Source of the DNA: an uncultured Shinella sp. | GTDB lineage: Bacteria; Pseudomonadota; Alphaproteobacteria; Rhizobiales; Rhizobiaceae | DNA: 8,666 nucleotides | Assembly: GCA_946481465.1 (NCBI GenBank) | Contig: CAMLOC010000107.1 | Span: forward strand, 1 to 8,666 | Direction: 5' to 3' | Part shown: positions 1-8,666 of the stretch, piece after piece | How positions within the stretch are numbered: position 1 is the first letter of the stretch | Layout: every line of letters starts with the position of its first letter | Position numbers and translations under genes: made by a program | The notes under the pieces: generated by a model | The model's input: only the letters and a program-made list of their open reading frames with translations | Told to the model about the DNA's origin: nothing | The model's database searches: none

Positions 1-641
1 TCGTCGCTGGCGGCCGCCATCTGCTGGCCGGTCTTGCCCTCGCTGCCGGCGTCCGTCGCCTGCGAGATCTCCACCTGCTGCGTCCAGAAATCAGGATCGA
101 ACGGGTCGCGATAGGCTTCGCCCCCATTGGCGCCGGTCGCAGGACCCGAGGTCGCCGCGCCGCCCTCGCCCTTGGCGCTGACATTCGCCTGCTGGCCGAC
201 TTCCTGGGCGATCTCCGACAGCACGGAATAGGGGTTCTCGAAGAAATTGGCCTCGGAATATTTCGCTTCCTCGCCGGCCGTCGTCTTCTCGTCCTTGCCG
301 CTCTCCGCGCCGTTGCCGCTCGCCTGCTGCTGGCCCTGTTCCTTGGACTTGTCCTGCGTCGCCTCGCCTTCGGCGCTGTTGGCCGGCTTCTTCACCGACT
401 TGTCGGCCGGCTTGTCGTCGGTCAGCTTGATCGGGTTGAAATAGGAGGCGACCGAGGCCTGGGTCTTCTCGTTGGCGGCATTGACAAGCCACATCACGAG
501 GAAGAAGGCCATCATGGCGGTCATGAAGTCGGCATAGGCGATCTTCCAGGCAGCCGAATGGTGGTCGCCCTCGTGATCGCCATGGCGCTTGACGATGATG
601 ATCTCGTTCTTGCCGTGGTGGTGATTTTCGCCTTCGCTCAT
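1..641 (-). CDS. motB: Flagellar motor stator protein MotB (C-terminus outside window)
   Basis: MotB is the peptidoglycan-anchored stator subunit that, with MotA, conducts ions and drives flagellar rotation from the inner membrane. The 213 residues visible start with a His-rich cytoplasmic segment (HHH at residues 7-9). The diagnostic stretch follows: [16 protein letters not shown] then LVMWLVN at residues 32-54. It contains the single transmembrane helix and the ion-carrying Asp38, equivalent to Asp32 of E. coli MotB. A plug-like segment (ASYFNPIKL, about 65-73) comes next. Then there is a long, charged, Gln/Gly/Ala-rich linker, as expected of rhizobial MotB. The OmpA-like peptidoglycan-binding domain would lie beyond the left edge. 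The start at 641 overlaps the stop of the upstream gene as ATGA, which indicates translational coupling. An AAGG sits about 7 nt upstream. The identification is firm; only the C-terminal part is unseen. Confidence 0.95.
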
Positions 642-1291
642 CCAAGCACCTTGCGCACGGTGTCAGCCCAGGCCGCCATCCGCGTTACCAGGACGGTTTC
701 GCCGAACTCCACCGTCAAATCGACATCCTGCATCTCGACATGCCGGAAGACCGGCGCGGGTTCGTCGAAATGCGTTTCCAGTTGCCGGAAGAGGTTTGCC
801 GGCCCCTTCACGGTTATCGTCATGCCTTCGTCGCCCTGCAGGCCCTCGCTGATCATGCGGGCGAGATCGGCGACCGCGCCCTGCGTCAGCACGTCGTTCA
901 TCACCGGCGCCAGGACCTCGGCCGTGTCGGCGGCGACGCGCTCGGCCACCTCGCCCGTCAGCGTGGAGAAGCGCTCGGCAAGGGCGCTGGCATAATCCTT
1001 CTCGTAGCGCGCCTTCACGCTGTCGAGCTCGGCCTGGTGCGCCTCCTTCAGCGCCGCGATCTCGGCCTCGTGGCGTGCGCGAAGCTCCGTCTCGGCTTCC
1101 GCCCTGCCCTCGGCAAAGGCCTCGGCGCGCTCGGCGGCAATATCCACCGGCGGCTCGGCCGGCGGCATGGCAAAGGCCTGGGCCGCGACCTCACCGTCGC
1201 CATCACCGAAGGACGGCGGCTGGAAGGCGGGCGCCTTGGGACGCGGAGGGGCGCCGAAATCCTTGAGGTAACGGGCGAGCTGCACGCTCAT
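638..1291 (-). CDS. FliH/YscL-like flagellar export protein (ORF upstream of motB)
   Basis: This is a 217-aa protein with the architecture of FliH/YscL, the peripheral stalk that binds and restrains the flagellar export ATPase FliI. It has a Pro-rich N-terminus (about 12-50), then a charged Ala/Glu coiled coil (about 50-110, including [18 protein letters not shown]). A C-terminal globular region (about 115-217) carries the FliH-like pattern of a helical segment, a 'MTITVKGP' strand and a '[15 protein letters not shown]' segment. The start at 1291 was chosen for its good ribosome site GGGGAGGA at 1298-1305, six bases upstream; a longer reading to 1429 has non-protein-like composition. Its stop overlaps the motB start (ATGA). 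A short uncharacterised ORF at this place before motB is, as I recall, usual in rhizobial flagellar clusters. The FliH assignment rests on architecture and residue pattern rather than a firm family match. Confidence 0.7.
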
Positions 1292-1516
1292 CGCGCATCC
1301 TCCCCGCCTGCCGCGTGCCGGGCGAACGCAATGGCGGCCCGGCGGGAACCCCGCGGACCGCTGCAACGCTCGCTCTCGAAAACACTGGAACCTGACACCA
1401 CCGCTGACCTGTCTCCTCGGACACCGCACCTTCCGCGAGGCGAAAGGCGCACAATCTTCCTGATCGTGCCGACGAACCTAGGGGTTCAAACTTGTGCGAG
1501 GATGAAGATGAAAGGT
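1292..1516. other. Intergenic stretch before the FliH-like gene
   Basis: This is about 225 bases without a credible gene. It holds a small hairpin GAACC-N4-GGTTC (1474-1487) and a GCGGG-N3-CCCGC hairpin (1342-1354). I saw no CtrA box, no clear -35/-10 pair and no sigma-54 consensus. The FliH-like gene and motB therefore either use a promoter I cannot recognise here or depend on readthrough from the flagellin gene. Confidence 0.5.
1298..1305 (-). promoter_or_regulatory. Ribosome binding site of the FliH-like gene
   Basis: GGGGAGGA lies six bases before the ATG at 1291. It decides this start over the in-frame upstream start at 1429, which would add 46 residues of implausible composition. Confidence 0.75.
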
Positions 1517-1603: not shown

Positions 1604-2788
1604 TTACTGGCGGAAGAGCTGGAGAATGTTCTCGGCGCTCGAATTGGCGATCGACAGGGACTGAATGCCGAGCTGCTGCTGGGTCTGCAGCGCCTTCAGG
1701 CGGGTCGATTCCTCGTTCATGTCCGCATCCACGAGACGGCCGATGCCCTTGTCGATCACGTCGTTGAGGCTGGCGACGAAGCTCTCCTGCATCTCGATGC
1801 GGGTGGAGATCGCGCCGAGGTCGGCCGCCGCGCTGGTCATCGCCTCCAGGGCCGCGTCCACCATCTTCAGCAAGCCGTCGAGCTGGGCGGTCGTGGTCGA
1901 ATTGCCGATGACGAGAGTGTCGACGGTCGATGTCGTCGCCGTGGCGACATTGGTCGTATCGACGGCCCAAAGGCCGCCGAGCGCGTCTTCGAAGGCAACC
2001 TCCTGGCTGGGAACGGTCGTCTGGTCCACCGCGATCACCCAGGTGTCCGTGGCGACCTTCACATAATGGTTCGTGCCGTCGGTGGCGTGGCTGCCGTCGA
2101 AGGTGGAGGCGCCGGCACCCGCCGCGATGACCTCGTCCGTCGTGAAGGCCGCGACGGTATATTCGCTGATGACGCCGCCGTCATTGATATTGAGCGCGAC
2201 GGCCGCCCCTTCGATCACCGTCGTCTTGTCGAGAATGCCGAGATTGCCGCCCTCGTCGAAGAGAACGGTCGTGTCGTCGAGCATGTAGTCGACCGTCTTG
2301 ACGGATACGGTGCCGGAGGCGTTGCGGACGAACGAGGCGACGACGCTCTTCTTCACGGAGCCGCCGGCGGCCGTCAGGTCGGTCTGCAGCCAGTTCTCGC
2401 CGGAGAAGGAGGCGCCTTCCGCGATGCTGACGAGTTGCTCCTGGAGCTGGGCGATCTCTTCCTGGATCTTCGACTTGTCGACGCCCTCTTCGGTCGCGGC
2501 GACGAGCTTCGCGCGAATTTCCGTCACGACCTCGATGGCCGATTCCAGACCGGCATAGGCCGTGTCGACCTTGGCGGCGCCGAGGCCGAGCGCGTCCTGG
2601 ACGGTGGCGAGAGCGCGGTTGTCCGACCGCATGGTGGTCGCGATCGACCAGTAGGCGGCGTTGTCGGCGGCGGTTTCGACGCGCATGCCGGACGAAACGC
2701 GGCCCTGGGTGGTTTCGAGGCCGTTGTCGATGGAACGGAGGGTCTGCAGCGCCGCCATGGCGGCGGAGTTGGTCAATATGCTGGTCAT
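1604..2788 (-). CDS. fla: Flagellin, rhizobial type
   Basis: This is the flagellar filament subunit, 394 aa. The N-terminal D0/D1 region (1-140) begins MTSILTN and contains DNAAYWSIATTMRSDN and a VQDALGLGAAKVDTAYAGLE stretch; it is strongly like the FlaA/FlaD flagellins of Sinorhizobium, Rhizobium and Agrobacterium. The conserved C-terminal D1/D0 region (about 300-394) has VDADMNEESTRLKALQTQQ and ends in ILQLFRQ. The central surface part (about 140-300) is rich in Thr, Ser and Asn, for instance TATTSTVDT and GNSTTTAQ, and offers many possible O-glycosylation sites. There is no signal peptide, as expected for flagellar type III export. The start at 2788 gives the canonical N-terminus; its Shine-Dalgarno is weak (an AGGG about 12 bases upstream). 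Two CtrA boxes lie 120-165 bases upstream, and a GT41-type glycosyltransferase gene precedes it on the same strand. Rhizobia often carry several flagellins, so the exact paralogue letter is uncertain. Confidence 0.96.
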   Translation of the reverse strand: MTSILTNSAAMAALQTLRSIDNGLETTQGRVSSGMRVETAADNAAYWSIATTMRSDNRALATVQDALGLGAAKVDTAYAGLESAIEVVTEIRAKLVAATEEGVDKSKIQEEIAQLQEQLVSIAEGASFSGENWLQTDLTAAGGSVKKSVVASFVRNASGTVSVKTVDYMLDDTTVLFDEGGNLGILDKTTVIEGAAVALNINDGGVISEYTVAAFTTDEVIAAGAGASTFDGSHATDGTNHYVKVATDTWVIAVDQTTVPSQEVAFEDALGGLWAVDTTNVATATTSTVDTLVIGNSTTTAQLDGLLKMVDAALEAMTSAAADLGAISTRIEMQESFVASLNDVIDKGIGRLVDADMNEESTRLKALQTQQQLGIQSLSIANSSAENILQLFRQ

Positions 2789-2909
2789 TGGCACTGGCCC
2801 TGGAAAGGAATTGTCGGGGACATGCCGGAGTGAGGCGGGGACCGGTAACGACGAAGGGGCTTCATGCATCCGGCGCCGCTCGTTTGCCCTGGGCGCCAGT
2901 CCGTCGTTC

Positions 2910-2998: not shown

Positions 2999-3033
2999 GG
3001 CCAGATCTGGCCCTCGACCGGCCCTCAGGCCGG
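2999..3033 (-). terminator. Palindromes at the end of the glycosyltransferase gene, possible terminator
   Basis: CCGGCC-CTCA-GGCCGG (3018-3033) places the stop codon in a tetraloop. A perfect 14-bp palindrome GGCCAGATCTGGCC (2999-3012) follows 12 bases after the stop. Neither has a clear U-tract on the minus strand, so termination is only plausible. The BglII-like core could instead be a protein site. Confidence 0.35.
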
Positions 3034-5061
3034 CCACAGGCGCGTATCGGCAGGGAGCGGCGAGAAGTCGTTCCATCGTGCGAGCCTTTCGGCGTAGCGC
3101 CGGCGATAGGCATCCTCGCTCTCGAATTCAGCGATTTCCTGAACGAGTTCCGCACCGATCTCGTAATAGACGTCGAGATTGACCAGATCGGGCACCGGCG
3201 TTTCGCCGCGCTCGGCCTCGCCCTGCATGTGCCAGAACAATTCCTCGAGCCGGCGGGCAAGGCCGTGCATGTCGCGCAGCACACAGGTCTCGCGGTTCTG
3301 TGCGAGCTTTTCACGCAGCGCCGCAAGTGCCTTGCGGTCGCCGGCCAGCGCGATCGCACGCTGGACATATTCCTCGGGCGTGGCGCAGATCAGTTCGCCG
3401 ATGCCCGCGGCCGAGACGATGCTGGCGCAGAAGCGAGCCGGGAAACTCTTGCCGGGAACCGTCAGCACCGGCAGGCCCATGGTGATCGCATCGGCGCCCG
3501 TCGAATGCGCACCATAGGGGAACGTGTCGAGGAACAGGTCGGCAAGCGCGATGCGGGCGAGATGCCGCGGATTGGGGATTTTCGGCGCGAAGATGATGCG
3601 CTCGGGCGCGACGCCCGCCTGCTGCGCCGTCTGGCGCAGGTTCCGGCTGGCGGCGTCGTTTTCACCGAGCAGCCAGAGGACGCTGCCGGGCGTGGCCGCG
3701 AGGATGGCAAGCCAGCGCGCAAAGCATGCCTCGGTGATCTTCTGCATGCCGTTGAAGCAGGCATAGACGAAGGCGTCCTCCGGCAGGCCGGCCTCCGCCC
3801 GGGTCGGCCGCGGAGCGATCTCGCGCTTGCGGTCGACAGGCTGGCCGCAGGCGATGCGCAGGACCTTTTCCGTGTAATAGATCTCGTTTTCAGGCGGGAT
3901 GATGTAGTCGTCGGTGATCAGGTATTGATGGTAGGGGCTCGCCATGGAACCCGGATAGCCGCAGAAATTGACGATGACCGGAGCCGGCCGATAGGCGAAG
4001 ATCGCCGTGCGCGCATGCTTGGTATAGCCGTTGACGTCGACAAGGACATCGATCTCGTCGCTGGCGATCAACTTGGCCGCATCGACGTCGCTGATCGCCG
4101 CGATATCGCGCCAGCAATCCACGGCGGCCTTGATGCGCGCCTGCGTCGCGTCGCTGGCGGCGGGGTCGCCGCAATAATAGGCGAAGATCTCGACGTTCTT
4201 CTTGTCGTGCAGTTCCAGGACCTCGCTGAGGGCGAAGCCCACCGCGTGCTGGCGAAGGTCCGACGAAACATAGCCGACGCGCAGGCGCTGGCCGCTGCCC
4301 GACTTGCGGCGGGCGGGCTTGCGCGGAACGCTCGACGTATCCGGCCGGCCGACCAGCGATTTGTTGTAACGATGGGCCCGGGCAAGCTGGAAGACCGGAT
4401 CGTCGGCATAGCAACCGAGCGTCAGCGGCGACTGCGCGTCGACCAGCTGGCGGGCGGTGACATGGGTGGACGGCGTCATGATCGGCCACTTGCACTGGTG
4501 CTGGCGGATCGACAACCAGTGCTGGGCCGCCTCGGGCTTCATGGGTTGCAGCTCGATCGCCTGCCACAGGACGGCTTCCGCCTCCTCCAGCCGACCGGCA
4601 TTTTCCAGCACGCGCCCGGTATGCTGGAGGCTCATCAGGCGGTGCCCGAGCTTTTCGGGCGTGATTTCCTTTGTCGTTTCCGCAAAGGCCAGCCATTGCC
4701 GTACGGCCTGGTCGATCTGGCCGCTATCCTCGAAGGCGCGGCCGAGATTGATATAGGCGGGACCGAAGGTCGGGTCCAGCTTCAGGCAGGTCTGCAACGC
4801 ATGGATCGCCCCGACGACATCACCGGCCTGGCGCAGCGCGACGGCATAGTTGAAGCAGGCCATGTGCCGGAAAGGACTGTCCTCGTTGAAGGCGATCCAG
4901 ATCTTGTAGAGATCGATCGCCTGGGCGAGCAGGCCCGCGCCCGTCAGCGCCTCGGCCGACTGCATGAGGTCGGGCAACGACATAGTCTGGCTGCGTGCCC
5001 GCTGGAACGCGGCGACCAGGGGCGAGGCAGGATCGGGAACCAACGAGGTCTTTACGTTCAT
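3025..5061 (-). CDS. TPR-containing SPINDLY/GT41-type O-linked N-acetylglucosamine transferase-like protein
   Basis: This is a 678-aa cytoplasmic protein that probably transfers a sugar from a nucleotide donor to Ser/Thr of a partner. About three TPR units (66-99, 100-133, 138-176) form a protein-binding N-terminus. They are followed by a QHQCKWP motif (187-193) typical of bacterial SPINDLY-like proteins. The GT-B catalytic part (about 259-612) starts LRVGYVSSDLRQH and keeps residues matching human OGT: His272 (OGT His498), NGYTKHAR (344-351), Lys441 in FNGMQK (OGT Lys842), and AHSTGAD (518-524, OGT His920/Asp925 region). A 60-residue acidic tail ends PADTRLWPA. The start at 5061 is set by GGAGGA (5066-5071); a start at 5088 lacks such a site. 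The gene lies directly upstream of flagellin on the same strand. FlmG, a TPR plus glycosyltransferase protein, modifies flagellins in Caulobacter, so flagellin is the likely substrate. Family assignment is firm; sugar and substrate are inferred. Confidence 0.88.
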   Translation of the reverse strand: MNVKTSLVPDPASPLVAAFQRARSQTMSLPDLMQSAEALTGAGLLAQAIDLYKIWIAFNEDSPFRHMACFNYAVALRQAGDVVGAIHALQTCLKLDPTFGPAYINLGRAFEDSGQIDQAVRQWLAFAETTKEITPEKLGHRLMSLQHTGRVLENAGRLEEAEAVLWQAIELQPMKPEAAQHWLSIRQHQCKWPIMTPSTHVTARQLVDAQSPLTLGCYADDPVFQLARAHRYNKSLVGRPDTSSVPRKPARRKSGSGQRLRVGYVSSDLRQHAVGFALSEVLELHDKKNVEIFAYYCGDPAASDATQARIKAAVDCWRDIAAISDVDAAKLIASDEIDVLVDVNGYTKHARTAIFAYRPAPVIVNFCGYPGSMASPYHQYLITDDYIIPPENEIYYTEKVLRIACGQPVDRKREIAPRPTRAEAGLPEDAFVYACFNGMQKITEACFARWLAILAATPGSVLWLLGENDAASRNLRQTAQQAGVAPERIIFAPKIPNPRHLARIALADLFLDTFPYGAHSTGADAITMGLPVLTVPGKSFPARFCASIVSAAGIGELICATPEEYVQRAIALAGDRKALAALREKLAQNRETCVLRDMHGLARRLEELFWHMQGEAERGETPVPDLVNLDVYYEIGAELVQEIAEFESEDAYRRRYAERLARWNDFSPLPADTRLWPA

Positions 5062-5258: not shown

Positions 5259-6650
5259 TCACTGTGCGAGAGTGGTTTCCGTGTAGGCAGCGATGATCCA
5301 GTTGGTCTGGTCCTGCGAGAACAGCGATTCACGCGATCCCGTCAGTTCGTCGAGCTGGGCATCGGTCATGTTCATCAGGTCATCTTCCTGCAGGCCCTTG
5401 ATGGCCGTGTCGGAGATGGCTGCAAACTCGGTCGCGGAGAAGAGGGCCAGGTCGCCGTCTTCGAGAGCCGCGATCTGGGCCGACGACATCGCGCCAACCT
5501 GCGTTACACCGAGCGCGGCGACCTGGTCGGTCGTCAGGGCGGTGATCTTGTCGGTCGACAGAACCTTGACGAGGTCGGCGCTCAGGCCGCTGAAGACGGT
5601 CGGGTCGAGCTTGGCCATCTGGGCGGCGTCCAGAGCGGCAAAGGCCTTCGAGTTGAGGGCGTTGACCTGGGTTGCATCGAGCGCGGCCACGTTGTCGGTG
5701 GACAGGCCAGCAACGCCGGTCGAGCTGATGGCGCCGAGCTGCGCGGTCGTCCAGGCATCGAGGGTGGTATCATCGATAGCGCCGATCTGGGTCGCGTTGA
5801 GGGCGGCGATCTGCGTCGAGGTCAGGTAACCCTGCTGCGTTGCGTCGAGCGCGGCCATGTTCAGGGCGGCGATCTGCTTGGAGGCCAGTGCGGCAACCTG
5901 AGCGTCGGTCCAGCCACCGACTTCATCGGCGGTCAGGGCAGTGACCTGCGCCGTGTTGAGCGCCTTGATCTGGTCCGTCGTCAGTGCCTTGCCGCCGTCG
6001 GCGTCGAGCAGCGCGATGTCGGCGCCATCCAGGCCGGCGAGGGCCTTGGTGGAAAGGGAGCCGATCTTCGACGACGTACCGGCGAAGAGTGCGGTGATGT
6101 CAGCGGCTTCGAGGCCGGCCACGCCATCGGAGGTCATGCCTTCGAGCTGGGTGGCGGTGAGGGCGGCAGCAGCCGTGGCATCGAGGGCCGTGACCTGAGA
6201 GCCGCTCAGCTTGCCGACCTGTGCGGCATCCAGGTTGACGATGGAGGTTGCGCTGAGCTGCGTTGCGTTCAGCGCGGCGAGCTGCTTGGACGTCAGGGCC
6301 TTCATCTGAGATGCGTCCAGCGCATCGAGGTCGGCGGTCACGAGCTGGCTGACCAGATCGGTCGACAGGCCCGAAACCTGCGCGTCGGAGAGGGAGGCGG
6401 TTGCAGAGGTGTTGATCTGCTGGAACTGACCAAGCGTCAGGCCGGCAAGCGCGCCGGTGGAAAGGCTGCTCAGCTTCAGCGATTCGATTTCGTCGTTGGC
6501 GATGACTGCAAGCTGGCTGGAAGAGAGTGCGGCAACGGCTTCGGACTTCAGCGCGCCCACGGCTGCGGTGTCGAGTGCCGCGACGTTCGTGGTGGTGAGG
6601 CCCTTGACCTGGGTTGCGGACAGGCCGGAAACAAACGAAGTGAGAGACAT
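5259..6650 (-). CDS. Octapeptide-repeat protein A, family unrecognised
   Basis: This is a 463-aa protein made almost entirely of about 50 tandem octads of the form L-[ST]-[ST]-x-Q-[VI]-x-A, for example LTTDQIKA, LNTAQVTA and LDATQVNA. Three pentads (LKLSS, TSIVN, LNMAA) and one 11-residue stretch interrupt the array. The octads cover residues 10-435. A short head (MSLTSFVSG) and a 28-residue tail ending QTNWIIAAYTETTLAQ flank them. There is no Cys, no signal peptide, no membrane helix and no RTX nonapeptide; the protein is acidic and Ser/Thr rich. Hydrophobic positions 1 and 6 with a Ser/Thr cap suggest very short stacked helices or another solenoid. The start at 6650 follows GGGG about eight bases upstream, and the reading further upstream is not protein-like. 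A CtrA-type promoter lies about 360 bases upstream and a strong terminator follows. It is a relative of the protein at the right edge. Function unknown; a secreted surface or flagellum-associated structural protein is my inference. Confidence 0.85.
   Translation of the reverse strand: MSLTSFVSGLSATQVKGLTTTNVAALDTAAVGALKSEAVAALSSSQLAVIANDEIESLKLSSLSTGALAGLTLGQFQQINTSATASLSDAQVSGLSTDLVSQLVTADLDALDASQMKALTSKQLAALNATQLSATSIVNLDAAQVGKLSGSQVTALDATAAAALTATQLEGMTSDGVAGLEAADITALFAGTSSKIGSLSTKALAGLDGADIALLDADGGKALTTDQIKALNTAQVTALTADEVGGWTDAQVAALASKQIAALNMAALDATQQGYLTSTQIAALNATQIGAIDDTTLDAWTTAQLGAISSTGVAGLSTDNVAALDATQVNALNSKAFAALDAAQMAKLDPTVFSGLSADLVKVLSTDKITALTTDQVAALGVTQVGAMSSAQIAALEDGDLALFSATEFAAISDTAIKGLQEDDLMNMTDAQLDELTGSRESLFSQDQTNWIIAAYTETTLAQ
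5346..6623 (-). repeat. In-frame 24-bp (octapeptide) repeat array of protein A
   Basis: About 50 degenerate 24-bp coding units encode L-x-x-x-Q-[VI]-x-A. The best conserved run is about residues 208-420. The units differ enough at DNA level that the array looks old and is maintained by selection on the protein pattern. A region LEAADITA followed by an 11-mer ending KIGS resembles the LEAEDIET...IGTR motif of protein B. Confidence 0.85.
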
Positions 6651-7007
6651 GGATATACCCCAAGATTGAAGTTGGCAGACGCAATCACCTGCGCACGTCC
6701 GGTCATCCGGGAGTTTCACGGCGAGGATGTCGAAACCCTTGCGCATGACGCGGGGCCGTCGGCGCTGCGCATGCCGCTATCGGCATCGACAGGCCCGGCA
6801 CCGCCCTGATTGGCGTTGGTGCTAGGTGAAACATGGCTCGCGCGAGCCAGCACAGCGGAATGGCATCATGCACCCAGAGCAACGAATGTCTCTGATCCCC
6901 ACGCCCTCGAAAGCAATCGCCCCTCACCCGGATGCCGCCTTACCGGCGGGGGCCCGAATGCATCTTCAGGCCCTGGGTTCGCGAGGGATTTTCGCGTTCA
7001 ACCGGAG
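6651..7007 (-). other. Long leader of the octad-repeat gene, no gene seen
   Basis: About 355 bases lie between the predicted promoter and the ATG at 6650. Short ORFs here on both strands have compositions unlike proteins and were discounted. It contains a perfect palindrome GGCTCGCGCGAGCC (6835-6848), able to fold as a hairpin, and a stem ATGCCG-CTAT-CGGCAT (6771-6786). If transcription does start near 7000, this is an unusually long 5' UTR that could hold post-transcriptional control. Confidence 0.45.
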
Positions 7008-7037
7008 ATTATCCCCCAGCCTTTAATTTTGGGTTAA
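7008..7037 (-). promoter_or_regulatory. Putative CtrA-dependent promoter of octad-repeat protein A
   Basis: The -35-like TTAACC (7032-7037) is embedded in the CtrA box. An 18-bp spacer separates it from a -10 GATAAT (7008-7013; five of six consensus bases). Transcription to the left would start near 7000 and read a leader of about 350 bases into the gene at 6650. Confidence 0.55.
7023..7037. promoter_or_regulatory. CtrA box upstream of octad-repeat protein A
   Basis: TTAA-TTTTGGG-TTAA is a perfect TTAA-N7-TTAA site. On the minus strand its first half (TTAACC, 7032-7037) sits 18 bp before GATAAT (7008-7013), the classic layout in which CtrA occupies the -35 region of an activated promoter. 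Confidence 0.72.
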
Positions 7038-7152
7038 CGCCCCATCGATTCTCTGTGCCGAGTTGACCGCATTCCGGCCCCGAGGGCAGCATAGGCAGAA
7101 AAATCCAAGCACAGTCCGAGGATAGACCTCACGCAACCAGTATTAATGATTA

Positions 7153-7184
7153 ACGGGCGCCCGCCGGAAATGGCGAACGCCCGT
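7153..7184 (-). terminator. Strand-specific terminator hairpin after octad-repeat protein B
   Basis: On the minus-strand transcript the arms ACGGGCGUUCGCC and GGCGGGCGCCCGU form a 13-bp stem including two G-U pairs, with loop AUUUCC, followed by UAAUCAUUAAU. On the plus strand the two G-U pairs become A-C mismatches. The structure therefore favours termination of the leftward transcript from the gene ending at 7329. Confidence 0.65.
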
Positions 7185-7199
7185 GAAAGGGTTCCGATG

Positions 7200-7311
7200 C
7201 GGTTTTCGGCCGGGCTGGAGCATTTCCAGCCGAAGCGAAATCGCTTCGGTGTCGGATAATGCGGTAAAACCAGTAATCCAGAGCATTTCCGATGAACCAG
7301 AAATGCTCTGG
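7200..7311. repeat. RIME-like palindromic intergenic element
   Basis: A stretch of about 110 bp carries two palindromic modules: GGCTGGA-N5-TCCAGCC (7213-7231) joined to CCGAAGCG-AAAT-CGCTTCGG (7230-7249), and a 12-bp stem CCAGAGCATTTC-N10-GAAATGCTCTGG (7278-7311). The size, the two large palindromes and the GAGCATTTC core fit the Rhizobium-specific intergenic mosaic elements (RIME) as I remember them. It lies directly after the stop of protein B, where it may also protect or end the transcript. A genome-wide copy search would settle the identity. Confidence 0.6.
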
Positions 7312-7328
7312 CGCCCTGCCCGGTCCTG

Positions 7329-8666
7329 TCAAAGACCCTCGAACTCGGCGTAGGCCGCCACCACCGCGTTCACCTGCTCGACGCTCATCGCCCGCGCCTG
7401 TGCCGCCGTGAGGCTGTCGAGCTGCTCTTCGCTGAGGCCCGAGACATGCTGCGTGCTCAGTCCCCTGATGGCCCGGGTGCCGATGGCCGCGATCTCGTCC
7501 GTCGTGAAGGTCTGGATATCCTCCAGCAACATCGCCGCGATCTGCCGGCTGCTCAGCGCGCCGATCTGGGCGGAGTTCAGGAGATCGATCTGGTCCGACG
7601 ACAGGGCCGCAATCTGCTCCGTCGACAACGATGCCACCTGGTCGGTCGTCAGTGCCGCGATCTGGTCGTTCTTCAGTGCGGCGATAACGCCGGTGGACAG
7701 GCGGGCAATCGTCCGCGAACCGATCTGCGCAATTTCATCCGTCGTGAAGGCCTGGATATCCTCCGATGCCAGGCCGGCAACGGCGGCGGCAGAAAGCACC
7801 GCAACCTGGCTGCTCGTGAGGGCCGCCGTCTGCTCGCTCGAAAGGGCGGCGACCTGATCGCTCTTCAACGCGGCGATGAAGGCCGTCGACAGAGCCGCGG
7901 TCTGGGCGGTCGAAAACGCCGTCACATCGAGGCTGACGGACTGGCGCGCGGTCAGCGCGCCGACCTGCGTCGCGCTCAGTGCGCCGAGCTGGTCGGAACC
8001 GAGGACAGCCAGCTGGGTGGACTTGAGCGCCGCGACCTGCCCGGTCGTCAAGGCGGCGACCTGCGCGGTGGAAAGCGCCGCGACGGCATCGGTGGAGAGC
8101 CACACGAGGACCCGCGTCGAGATCTGCGCGACTTCATCGGTCGTGAACGTTTCGATATCCGCGGCTCCGATGCCCGTGATGCCGGCCGCCGAGAGCGCCG
8201 CGACCTGCCCGGTTCCAAGGGCGGACACCTGGTCGGTCGACAGCGCGGTAACCTGATTGCCCTTCAACGCGGCGACGAAGGCGGTCGACAGGGCCGCGGT
8301 CTGGCCGGTCGACAGGGCCGACACGTCGAGGCCTACAGCCTGGCGTACGGCAAGCGCGCCGATCTGCGCCGTGGAGAGCGCCCCCATCTGCTCGGAGGAA
8401 AGCGCGGCCAGCTGGGCGGTCGAAAGAACGGAGACCTGCCCCGTCGTCAGCGCGGCGACCTGCGCGGTGGAAAGAGCGGTGACGGCATCGGTGGAAAGGC
8501 GTGCAAGGACCCGCGTCCCGATGCTTGCGATCTCGCCGGTCGTGAACGTCTCGATGTCCTCGGCTTCCAGACCCTCGACGGCAGCCGCCGAAAGCGCTGC
8601 GATCTGGCCGCTCGTGAGCGCTGCCGCCTGCTCGGGCGACAGGGCGGCGACCTGATCGCTCTTCAA
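7329..8666 (-). CDS. Octapeptide-repeat protein B, C-terminal part (N-terminus outside window)
   Basis: The reading frame is open at the right edge, so the true start is unseen; the TTG at the very edge is read as Leu of a repeat. The 445 visible residues comprise 53 octads such as LSTAQVAA and LTTGQVAA, plus two pentads (LDVSA, LDVTA). These are ordered into higher units of 133 residues. Each unit starts with LK, carries a distinctive EDIETFTT...IG/STR segment at octads 5-7, and ends STAFVAA or STAFIAA. The last third diverges and ends in EQVNAVVAAYAEFEGL, a tail like that of protein A. No Cys or membrane segment is seen. The protein resembles A in octad consensus and tail but has a higher-order repeat and is probably considerably longer. 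I do not recognise the family; an exported structural or adhesive role is a guess from repetitiveness and context. Confidence 0.85.
   Translation of the reverse strand: MKSDQVAALSPEQAAALTSGQIAALSAAAVEGLEAEDIETFTTGEIASIGTRVLARLSTDAVTALSTAQVAALTTGQVSVLSTAQLAALSSEQMGALSTAQIGALAVRQAVGLDVSALSTGQTAALSTAFVAALKGNQVTALSTDQVSALGTGQVAALSAAGITGIGAADIETFTTDEVAQISTRVLVWLSTDAVAALSTAQVAALTTGQVAALKSTQLAVLGSDQLGALSATQVGALTARQSVSLDVTAFSTAQTAALSTAFIAALKSDQVAALSSEQTAALTSSQVAVLSAAAVAGLASEDIQAFTTDEIAQIGSRTIARLSTGVIAALKNDQIAALTTDQVASLSTEQIAALSSDQIDLLNSAQIGALSSRQIAAMLLEDIQTFTTDEIAAIGTRAIRGLSTQHVSGLSEEQLDSLTAAQARAMSVEQVNAVVAAYAEFEGL
7677..7868 (-). repeat. Partial third super-repeat unit of protein B
   Basis: The first eight octads, LKSDQVAA to LSTGVIAA, follow units 1 and 2 closely, including the EDIQAFTTDEIAQIGSR segment. 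After this the register changes. A second EDIQTFTTDEIAAIGTR segment appears ten octads later (about 7437-7448 and surrounding), which suggests a deletion or recombination between units. Confidence 0.7.
7869..8267 (-). repeat. 399-bp super-repeat unit 2 of protein B
   Basis: It has the same length and order as unit 1: 16 octads with a pentad (LDVTA) at the same place, from LKGNQVTA to LSTAFIAA. Protein and DNA are clearly similar to unit 1, which indicates tandem duplication of the whole 133-residue block. Confidence 0.85.
8268..8666 (-). repeat. 399-bp super-repeat unit 1 of protein B
   Basis: It encodes 16 octads and one pentad (LDVSA), 133 residues, from LKSDQVAA to LSTAFVAA. The window ends exactly at its first codon, so further copies may lie outside. 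Confidence 0.85.

Follow-up and report, generated by a model that had tools for sequence, protein, structure and literature searches.

An uncultured Shinella sp. carries, on the 8,666-nucleotide contig CAMLOC010000107.1 (assembly GCA_946481465.1; hereafter the window), genes for two neighbouring proteins, A and B, built of tandem octads, together with an enzyme that joins tetratricopeptide repeats (TPRs) to a glycosyltransferase domain of family GT41. In three samples (order, class and Rhizobiaceae) no genome without octads has a GT41 of this clade, and the fact that close relatives of the enzyme nearly always adjoin an octad gene suggests that the repeats are its target. Moreover, the octads are rich in Ser/Thr at position 2 with or without a GT41, at position 3 mainly with one, and in many lineages at position 4 too. 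We favour, with moderate confidence, the reading that the repeat protein is secreted and that, beforehand in the cytoplasm, its GT41 attaches O-linked sugars to octad positions 3/4.

A and B would then be solenoid exoproteins whose helical repeat is eight residues long. In the cytoplasm the adjacent TPR-GT41 would recognise both, reading their repeat with its TPR superhelix, and would move a sugar from a uridine diphosphate (UDP) donor onto the Ser/Thr in the first turn of every mini-helix, at octad position 3 and, in many lineages, also at position 4. Bearing up to hundreds of sugars, the protein would exit via a type I exporter by means of a conserved C-terminal helix and act as a surface or extracellular glycoprotein, perhaps an adhesin or coat. 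A GT41 clade tied to one repeat protein, with a hydroxyl position that tracks the enzyme, would supply a concrete substrate and a predicted site, and an uncharacterised Pfam repeat family gains a partner and a predicted fold. More doubtful is a general bacterial system, in which the TPR-GT41 would walk along a helical-screw solenoid and add a sugar at the position where the helix begins in almost every octad; the product, a giant glycoprotein rod of regular spacing, would afterwards be exported. The donor enzymes (UDP-galactopyranose mutase, UDP-xylose synthase) would differ by lineage. If true, this would provide a natural substrate class for bacterial enzymes of the O-GlcNAc transferase (OGT) type. 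Bacterial TPR-GT41 enzymes resemble human OGT and, to our knowledge, few of them have a known natural protein target.

The octad repeat and its link to one GT41 clade

The octad repeats in A and B are confirmed. Self-identity at a lag of eight residues is 0.253 in A and 0.359 in B, against means of 0.103 and 0.108 in 1000 shuffles (standard deviation (SD) 0.013-0.015, maxima 0.147 and 0.169), and lags 16 and 24 stand out too. A parse by position-specific scoring matrix (PSSM), trained on 87 open reading frames (ORFs) with A and B among them, recovers 44 octads in A and 51 in B (200 shuffles: means 6.6 and 5.8, maxima 14 and 11), or 47 and 49 with positions 2-4 neutralised. The 8-residue period proposed in an earlier sequence-only reading of the window is thus borne out, while its count of about 103 octads falls to 95 by the PSSM parse. 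The consensus from 14,336 octads is L-[ST]-[ST]-x-Q-[IVL]-A-A. As that reading also had it, neither protein contains a Cys, and no signal peptide is obvious in A by eye.

Both proteins match the Pfam family PF20080, 'ALTTAQ repeat' (A 156.2 bits, E 1.5e-46; B 265.5 bits, E 1e-80), far above its curated cut-off of 26.4 bits. In NCBIfam A has no match, and B has one row below the threshold. A literature search on PF20080 found no paper, function or partner, and some of its proteins are annotated 'heme utilization protein' or 'large exoprotein involved in heme utilization or adhesion'. The family is named already yet uncharacterised, and the GT41 link is a new result. The overall interpretation of the sequence-only reading, an undescribed system in an unrecognised family, is therefore partly supported: the function is undescribed, but the profile search does recognise the family.

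The first lead to the link came from a collection of 72,556 plasmid records, where A has matches in 57 and the GT41 in 100. The best places of the two lie at most 10 kb apart in at least 26 of the 57 (coordinates read among the records listed); 11 of the 57 are from Cereibacter, several near-identical. Scanning genome contigs with the GT41 alone as query gave a set of 65 loci, in 62 of which an octad ORF of at least 150 aa adjoins the enzyme at a median distance of 454 bp (maximum 872 bp). The nearest octad ORF lies upstream and co-directional in 27 loci, upstream and divergent in 34 and downstream in one. Octad ORFs in the set span 205-2730 aa, some being cut by contig ends. Loci L006 and L013 have only octad relics of about 110 aa beside the GT41, and L046 has no octad ORF. 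As an observation in its own right, each relic (L006 9543-9866, L013 9605-9946 (-)) stands next to a full-length GT41 match, an apparent decay of the acceptor gene with the enzyme kept.

Genome samples, which have the centre genome G001 in common in three cases, were scored for both families. PF20080 was found in 4 of 121 genomes of the order sample, exactly the four with a GT41 of at least 551 bits, and the genes lie side by side; other GT41s (at most 340 bits) were found without PF20080 (Fisher 1.2e-7; 3.6e-6 without the centre genome). The class sample has PF20080 in 6 of 385 genomes, and its four GT41s of at least 599 bits (next 353) all fall within those six, at most 7 kb from octad matches listed. 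The remaining two are G272, without a GT41, and G172, whose only GT41 is divergent and on another contig. Among 101 Rhizobiaceae genomes PF20080 occurs in 14, comprising all eight with a GT41 of at least 1000 bits (next 338) versus 6 of the other 93. Each of these eight enzymes is at most 6 kb from an octad match listed, and the 14 genomes with only lower-scoring GT41s all lack PF20080. Three genomes with long arrays (G855, G890 and G919) gave no GT41 match at E<=1e-30 with the window protein, and G855 none by PF13844 either. In the phylum sample, scored for the enzyme by the PF13844 family profile, PF20080 is present in 28 of 398 genomes. PF13844 accompanies it in 18 of the 27 besides G001: 16 of 17 genomes with long arrays (at least 20 repeat matches) versus 2 of 10 with short ones (fewer than 10). 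Both genes lie on one contig stretch or adjoining stretches in G538, G543, G546, G569, G572, G594, G621, G818 and G835. Separately, the control genome of Caulobacter vibrioides matched both PF20080 and PF13844.

The window enzyme itself matches PF13844 (GT41) at 237.2 bits against a cut-off of 25, with TPR matches at its N-terminus. Its closest solved relatives are the 110-kDa OGT (E 5.6e-81) and XcOGT (E 3.5e-76); we know of no established natural protein target of XcOGT. In the alignments to the OGT and XcOGT chains, SSDLRQH places its His, and FNGMQK its Lys, opposite the catalytic His and Lys of OGT (H498 and K842). ORFs of about 2,400-3,800 aa with several serial GT41 matches were also seen in octad-array genomes (G594:C92, G614:C153, G562:C17/C29, G579:C141, G582:C30/C411 and G604:C1/C379).

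Predicted fold and hydroxyls by octad position

An AlphaFold2 model of A, built with five orthologs, shows with high confidence a solenoid in which each octad forms roughly one mini-helix (mean predicted local distance difference test (pLDDT) 92.1, predicted template-modelling (TM) score 0.77). It contains 50 helices of at least four residues, nearly all very short, the last one being longer (residues 446-462). Over 47 octads the helical fraction is 0.02 at positions 1-2, 0.98 at 3-5, 0.91 at 6, 0.79 at 7 and 0.40 at 8. In the model position 2 thus caps the helix at its N-terminal end, and the helix itself starts at position 3. The model agrees with the sequence-only reading, which proposed very short elements, capped by Ser/Thr and arranged as a solenoid; disorder, which that reading had named beforehand as counting against it, is not indicated for A, because the mini-helices are regular and the mean pLDDT is high.

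A fold search with the model found no close solved fold among PDB structures. Mesothelin had the best Foldseek E-value (1.6e-4), and with a TM score of 0.23 and a root-mean-square deviation of 13 A we do not claim a shared fold. The best PDB sequence match (E 9.4e-13 and 1.6e-17) is HeliScrew4 (PDB 9zem), a 120-aa chain with the same octad pattern, whose octads are mostly [ST]-P-[ED]-[QK], with Pro at position 3; its name and regularity suggest a designed protein. HeliScrew4 was not among the fold-search results (library to April 2026), so that the likeness is one of sequence.

To compare hydroxyls by position, octads were parsed with positions 2-4 neutral and the other position scores taken from the GT41-linked set. 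The groups were nine GT41-less genomes, 27 GT41-positive entries (24 genomes and three plasmid records) and 62 loci of the 65-locus set. At position 3 the Ser/Thr fraction is 0.00-0.26 (median 0.14) in the GT41-less genomes and 0.28-0.96 (median 0.73) in the GT41-positive entries (Mann-Whitney U, p 9.8e-6), and 0.59-0.99 (median 0.89) in the 62 loci. Pro at this position follows the opposite course (0.24, 0.00 and 0.01 in the same order). Position 4 rises from 0.14 without to 0.76 with a GT41, and positions 7 and 8 do not differ between groups. Among long arrays of Rhizobiaceae, compared over stretches round the best matches (1-3 per genome), position 3 stands at 0.26, 0.33 and 0.54 in three genomes without a GT41 match and at 0.66-0.91 in eight with one (p 0.012). 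ALTTAQ repeats are also fused to calpain-type C2 peptidase domains (P0001, P0003, P0004, P0041 and others); taken irrespective of GT41, the median at position 3 is 0.26 in 18 calpain-fused proteins and 0.68 in 28 proteins with PF26745. As a side observation, loci with two tandem GT41 genes (L107, L108, L071) have Ser/Thr at positions 3 and 4 and several single-GT41 loci (L073, L072, L105/L125) at position 3 only, a pattern that G080 does not fit.

Unlikely, although it survives best among the alternatives, is that Ser/Thr serve a purely structural purpose in an octad protein that acts as spacer or coat, and that the GT41 modifies another target in the same surface pathway. Octads without a GT41 exist (G855), nearby UDP-sugar genes could serve polysaccharide, and helix N-capping accounts for Ser/Thr at position 2. 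Capping does not, however, explain position 3, because position 2 is non-helical in the model and positions 3-6 are helical (0.91-0.98), and without a GT41 positions 3/4 carry less Ser/Thr and more Pro. Also against it, among ORF clusters within +-10 kb of the fetched loci, a clustering disturbed by shadow frames, the octad gene alone is nearly constant, and the next, the mutase, is an enzyme.

Points against glycosylated octads, and other known systems

Several observations weigh against cytoplasmic glycosylation of the octads by the GT41. G818 has a GT41 beside its array and only 0.36 Ser/Thr at position 3 (0.78 at position 4), both positions are low in G172 (0.28/0.33; GT41 only divergent and elsewhere) and G579 (0.49/0.47), and window A reaches only 0.43 at position 3 and 0.34 at position 4, where B has 0.71 at position 3. 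Position 2 differs as well (medians 0.58 without versus 0.72 with a GT41, p 0.0095; 0.75 in the 65-locus set), and position 4 is not raised in the 65-locus set (0.21). The contrast is partly one between protein types, because most GT41-less entries are short arrays (12-88 octads) with other architectures; long GT41-less arrays are few (G855, G890, G919). The repeat does not depend on glycosylation, since some octads lack the extra hydroxyls. Many octad genes are distant from any GT41 seen (L002, L115, L116), the sole match of type I secretion system (T1SS) kind in the 65 loci is one ABC gene in L046, which lacks an octad gene, and the sample and position statistics ignore phylogeny.

Genes for flagellin and MotB neighbour the cassette in both the window and L003, FlgE and two flagellins are near it in Pseudorhizobium flavum, Shinella sp. 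PSBB067 has the window's flagellin part at most 5 kb from its GT41, and two ORF clusters, flagellar by eye (FlgF- and FliG-like), occur in four loci each. These arrangements would suit a GT41 that glycosylates flagellin, with A and B as unrelated or flagellum-associated neighbours; PMC7591256 describes such an enzyme in Caulobacter, FlmG, as a TPR and GT-B flagellin transferase that O-glycosylates an exported protein in the cytoplasm. We consider this improbable, slightly more so than a purely structural repeat. The flagellin neighbourhood stressed by the sequence-only reading is present in the window but is not typical: flagellin is within 10 kb in 1 of 65 GT41-anchored loci, compared with octad ORFs in 62 and relics in two, and the genome samples link the GT41 clade to PF20080. 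It is the TPR-GT41 gene and the octad gene that stay together, and that reading did not name this constant neighbour. Flagellin was seen in the window, L003, L069 and Shinella sp. PSBB067; the adjacency is lineage-specific, and not the linkage of enzyme to flagellin across orthologs that a FlmG-like enzyme would show. Moreover, the gene neighbourhood points to the octad protein as acceptor, unlike in FlmG, whose donor is pseudaminic acid.

Very improbable is N-glycosylation of Asn sequons, as by HMW1C, which PMC3983070 describes as a GT41 acting in the cytoplasm on a partner adhesin: sequons are about as frequent as in shuffles in A (4 versus 2.8, SD 1.5) and B (0 versus 0.9), 80 relatives have 0.25 per 100 aa versus 26 Ser+Thr, and the window enzyme has TPRs and matches OGT at E 6e-81 versus 8e-6 to 9e-5 for HMW1C-like or N-glucosyltransferase chains.

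By analogy, the octad protein and its TPR-GT41 would work like HMW1/HMW1C or FlmG/flagellin. The pair resembles the first in that an exoprotein gene is paired with a cytoplasmic GT41. HMW1, however, uses Sec and an outer-membrane pore and Asn sequons, with an AAD-type GT41 rather than a TPR one (PMC3983070), whereas the pair described here has a TPR-GT41, Ser/Thr octads and T1SS genes at many loci. A and B are not sequon-rich acceptors of the HMW1 type. We do not file the pair under either system, because neither that sequon density nor the flagellin linkage of FlmG was found.

Export, sugar-donor and neighbouring genes

Of 19 longer GT41-bearing loci from other lineages (L071-L073, L104-L110, L113, L114, L117, L118, L156-L159, L165), 12 contain ABC and HlyD exporter genes (L071-L073, L105-L108, L114, L156-L159), by which the octad protein may leave the cell as a type I substrate. 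These lie between the octad gene and the GT41 in nine loci and past the GT41 in three (L072, L073, L105); L165 has an ABC gene only, and six loci are without exporter genes. No exporter genes were seen in the Rhizobiaceae plasmid loci L068-L070, and a type I route in this family would be by extension from the other lineages. At their C-terminus octad proteins share a tail around Ala-Tyr (the pattern fits 65 of 72), kept even behind Ser-rich linkers (L002, L020, L023, L057), and several T1SS-linked ones end otherwise, in -LF[LM] (L071, L073, L107, L108). The shared tail, a helix in the model of A, is a candidate type I signal.

UDP-galactopyranose mutase is encoded in 52 of the 65 Rhizobiaceae-type loci, at most 3 kb 3' of the GT41 in 45. 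A gene like that of UDP-glucuronate decarboxylase is annotated beside the GT41 in L071, with 77-79% matches in L107 and L108. In L003 (Shinella fusca; GT41 88% identical), where the cassette lies among flagellin genes, the mutase is encoded directly upstream of B, so that a mutase belonging to the window cassette may lie just beyond the window edge.

On the minus strand of the window the order of transcription is B, A, TPR-GT41 and flagellin, followed by an unassigned ORF and the beginning of a MotB-type gene, so that the TPR-GT41 gene sits between A and flagellin (Table 1). The frame of A is open from 6746, and the ATG at 6650 (MSLTSF...) is the start common to orthologs. The start of B is missing because its ORF runs past the window edge.

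Table 1. Features of the window discussed in the text
Feature	Position	Strand	Remarks
Protein A	5259..6650	-	463 aa, 44-47 octads, ALTTAQ repeat
Protein B	7329..8666	-	at least 445 aa, 49-51 octads; 5' end outside window
TPR and GT41 (OGT-like) glycosyltransferase, proposed modifier of A/B	3025..5061	-	profile match; residues opposite the OGT catalytic His and Lys kept
C-terminal helix of A, residues 446-462, ...DQTNWIIAAY...	5265..5315	-	shared tail, candidate export signal
C-terminal tail of B, ...EQVNAVVAAYAEFEGL	7332..7379	-	tail type as in A; from L003 ortholog and window
Flagellin gene, start probably 2788	1604..2869	-	neighbour in few loci; outside the proposed system

Beside the MotB-type gene, a 263-aa ORF (window 638-1429, minus strand) is possibly FliH-like by eye and has no Pfam match above cut-off. 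Elsewhere, a 428-aa protein with a PF12248-like domain (L069 18054-19340) is often encoded near the GT41, with matches in 28 of the 65 loci.

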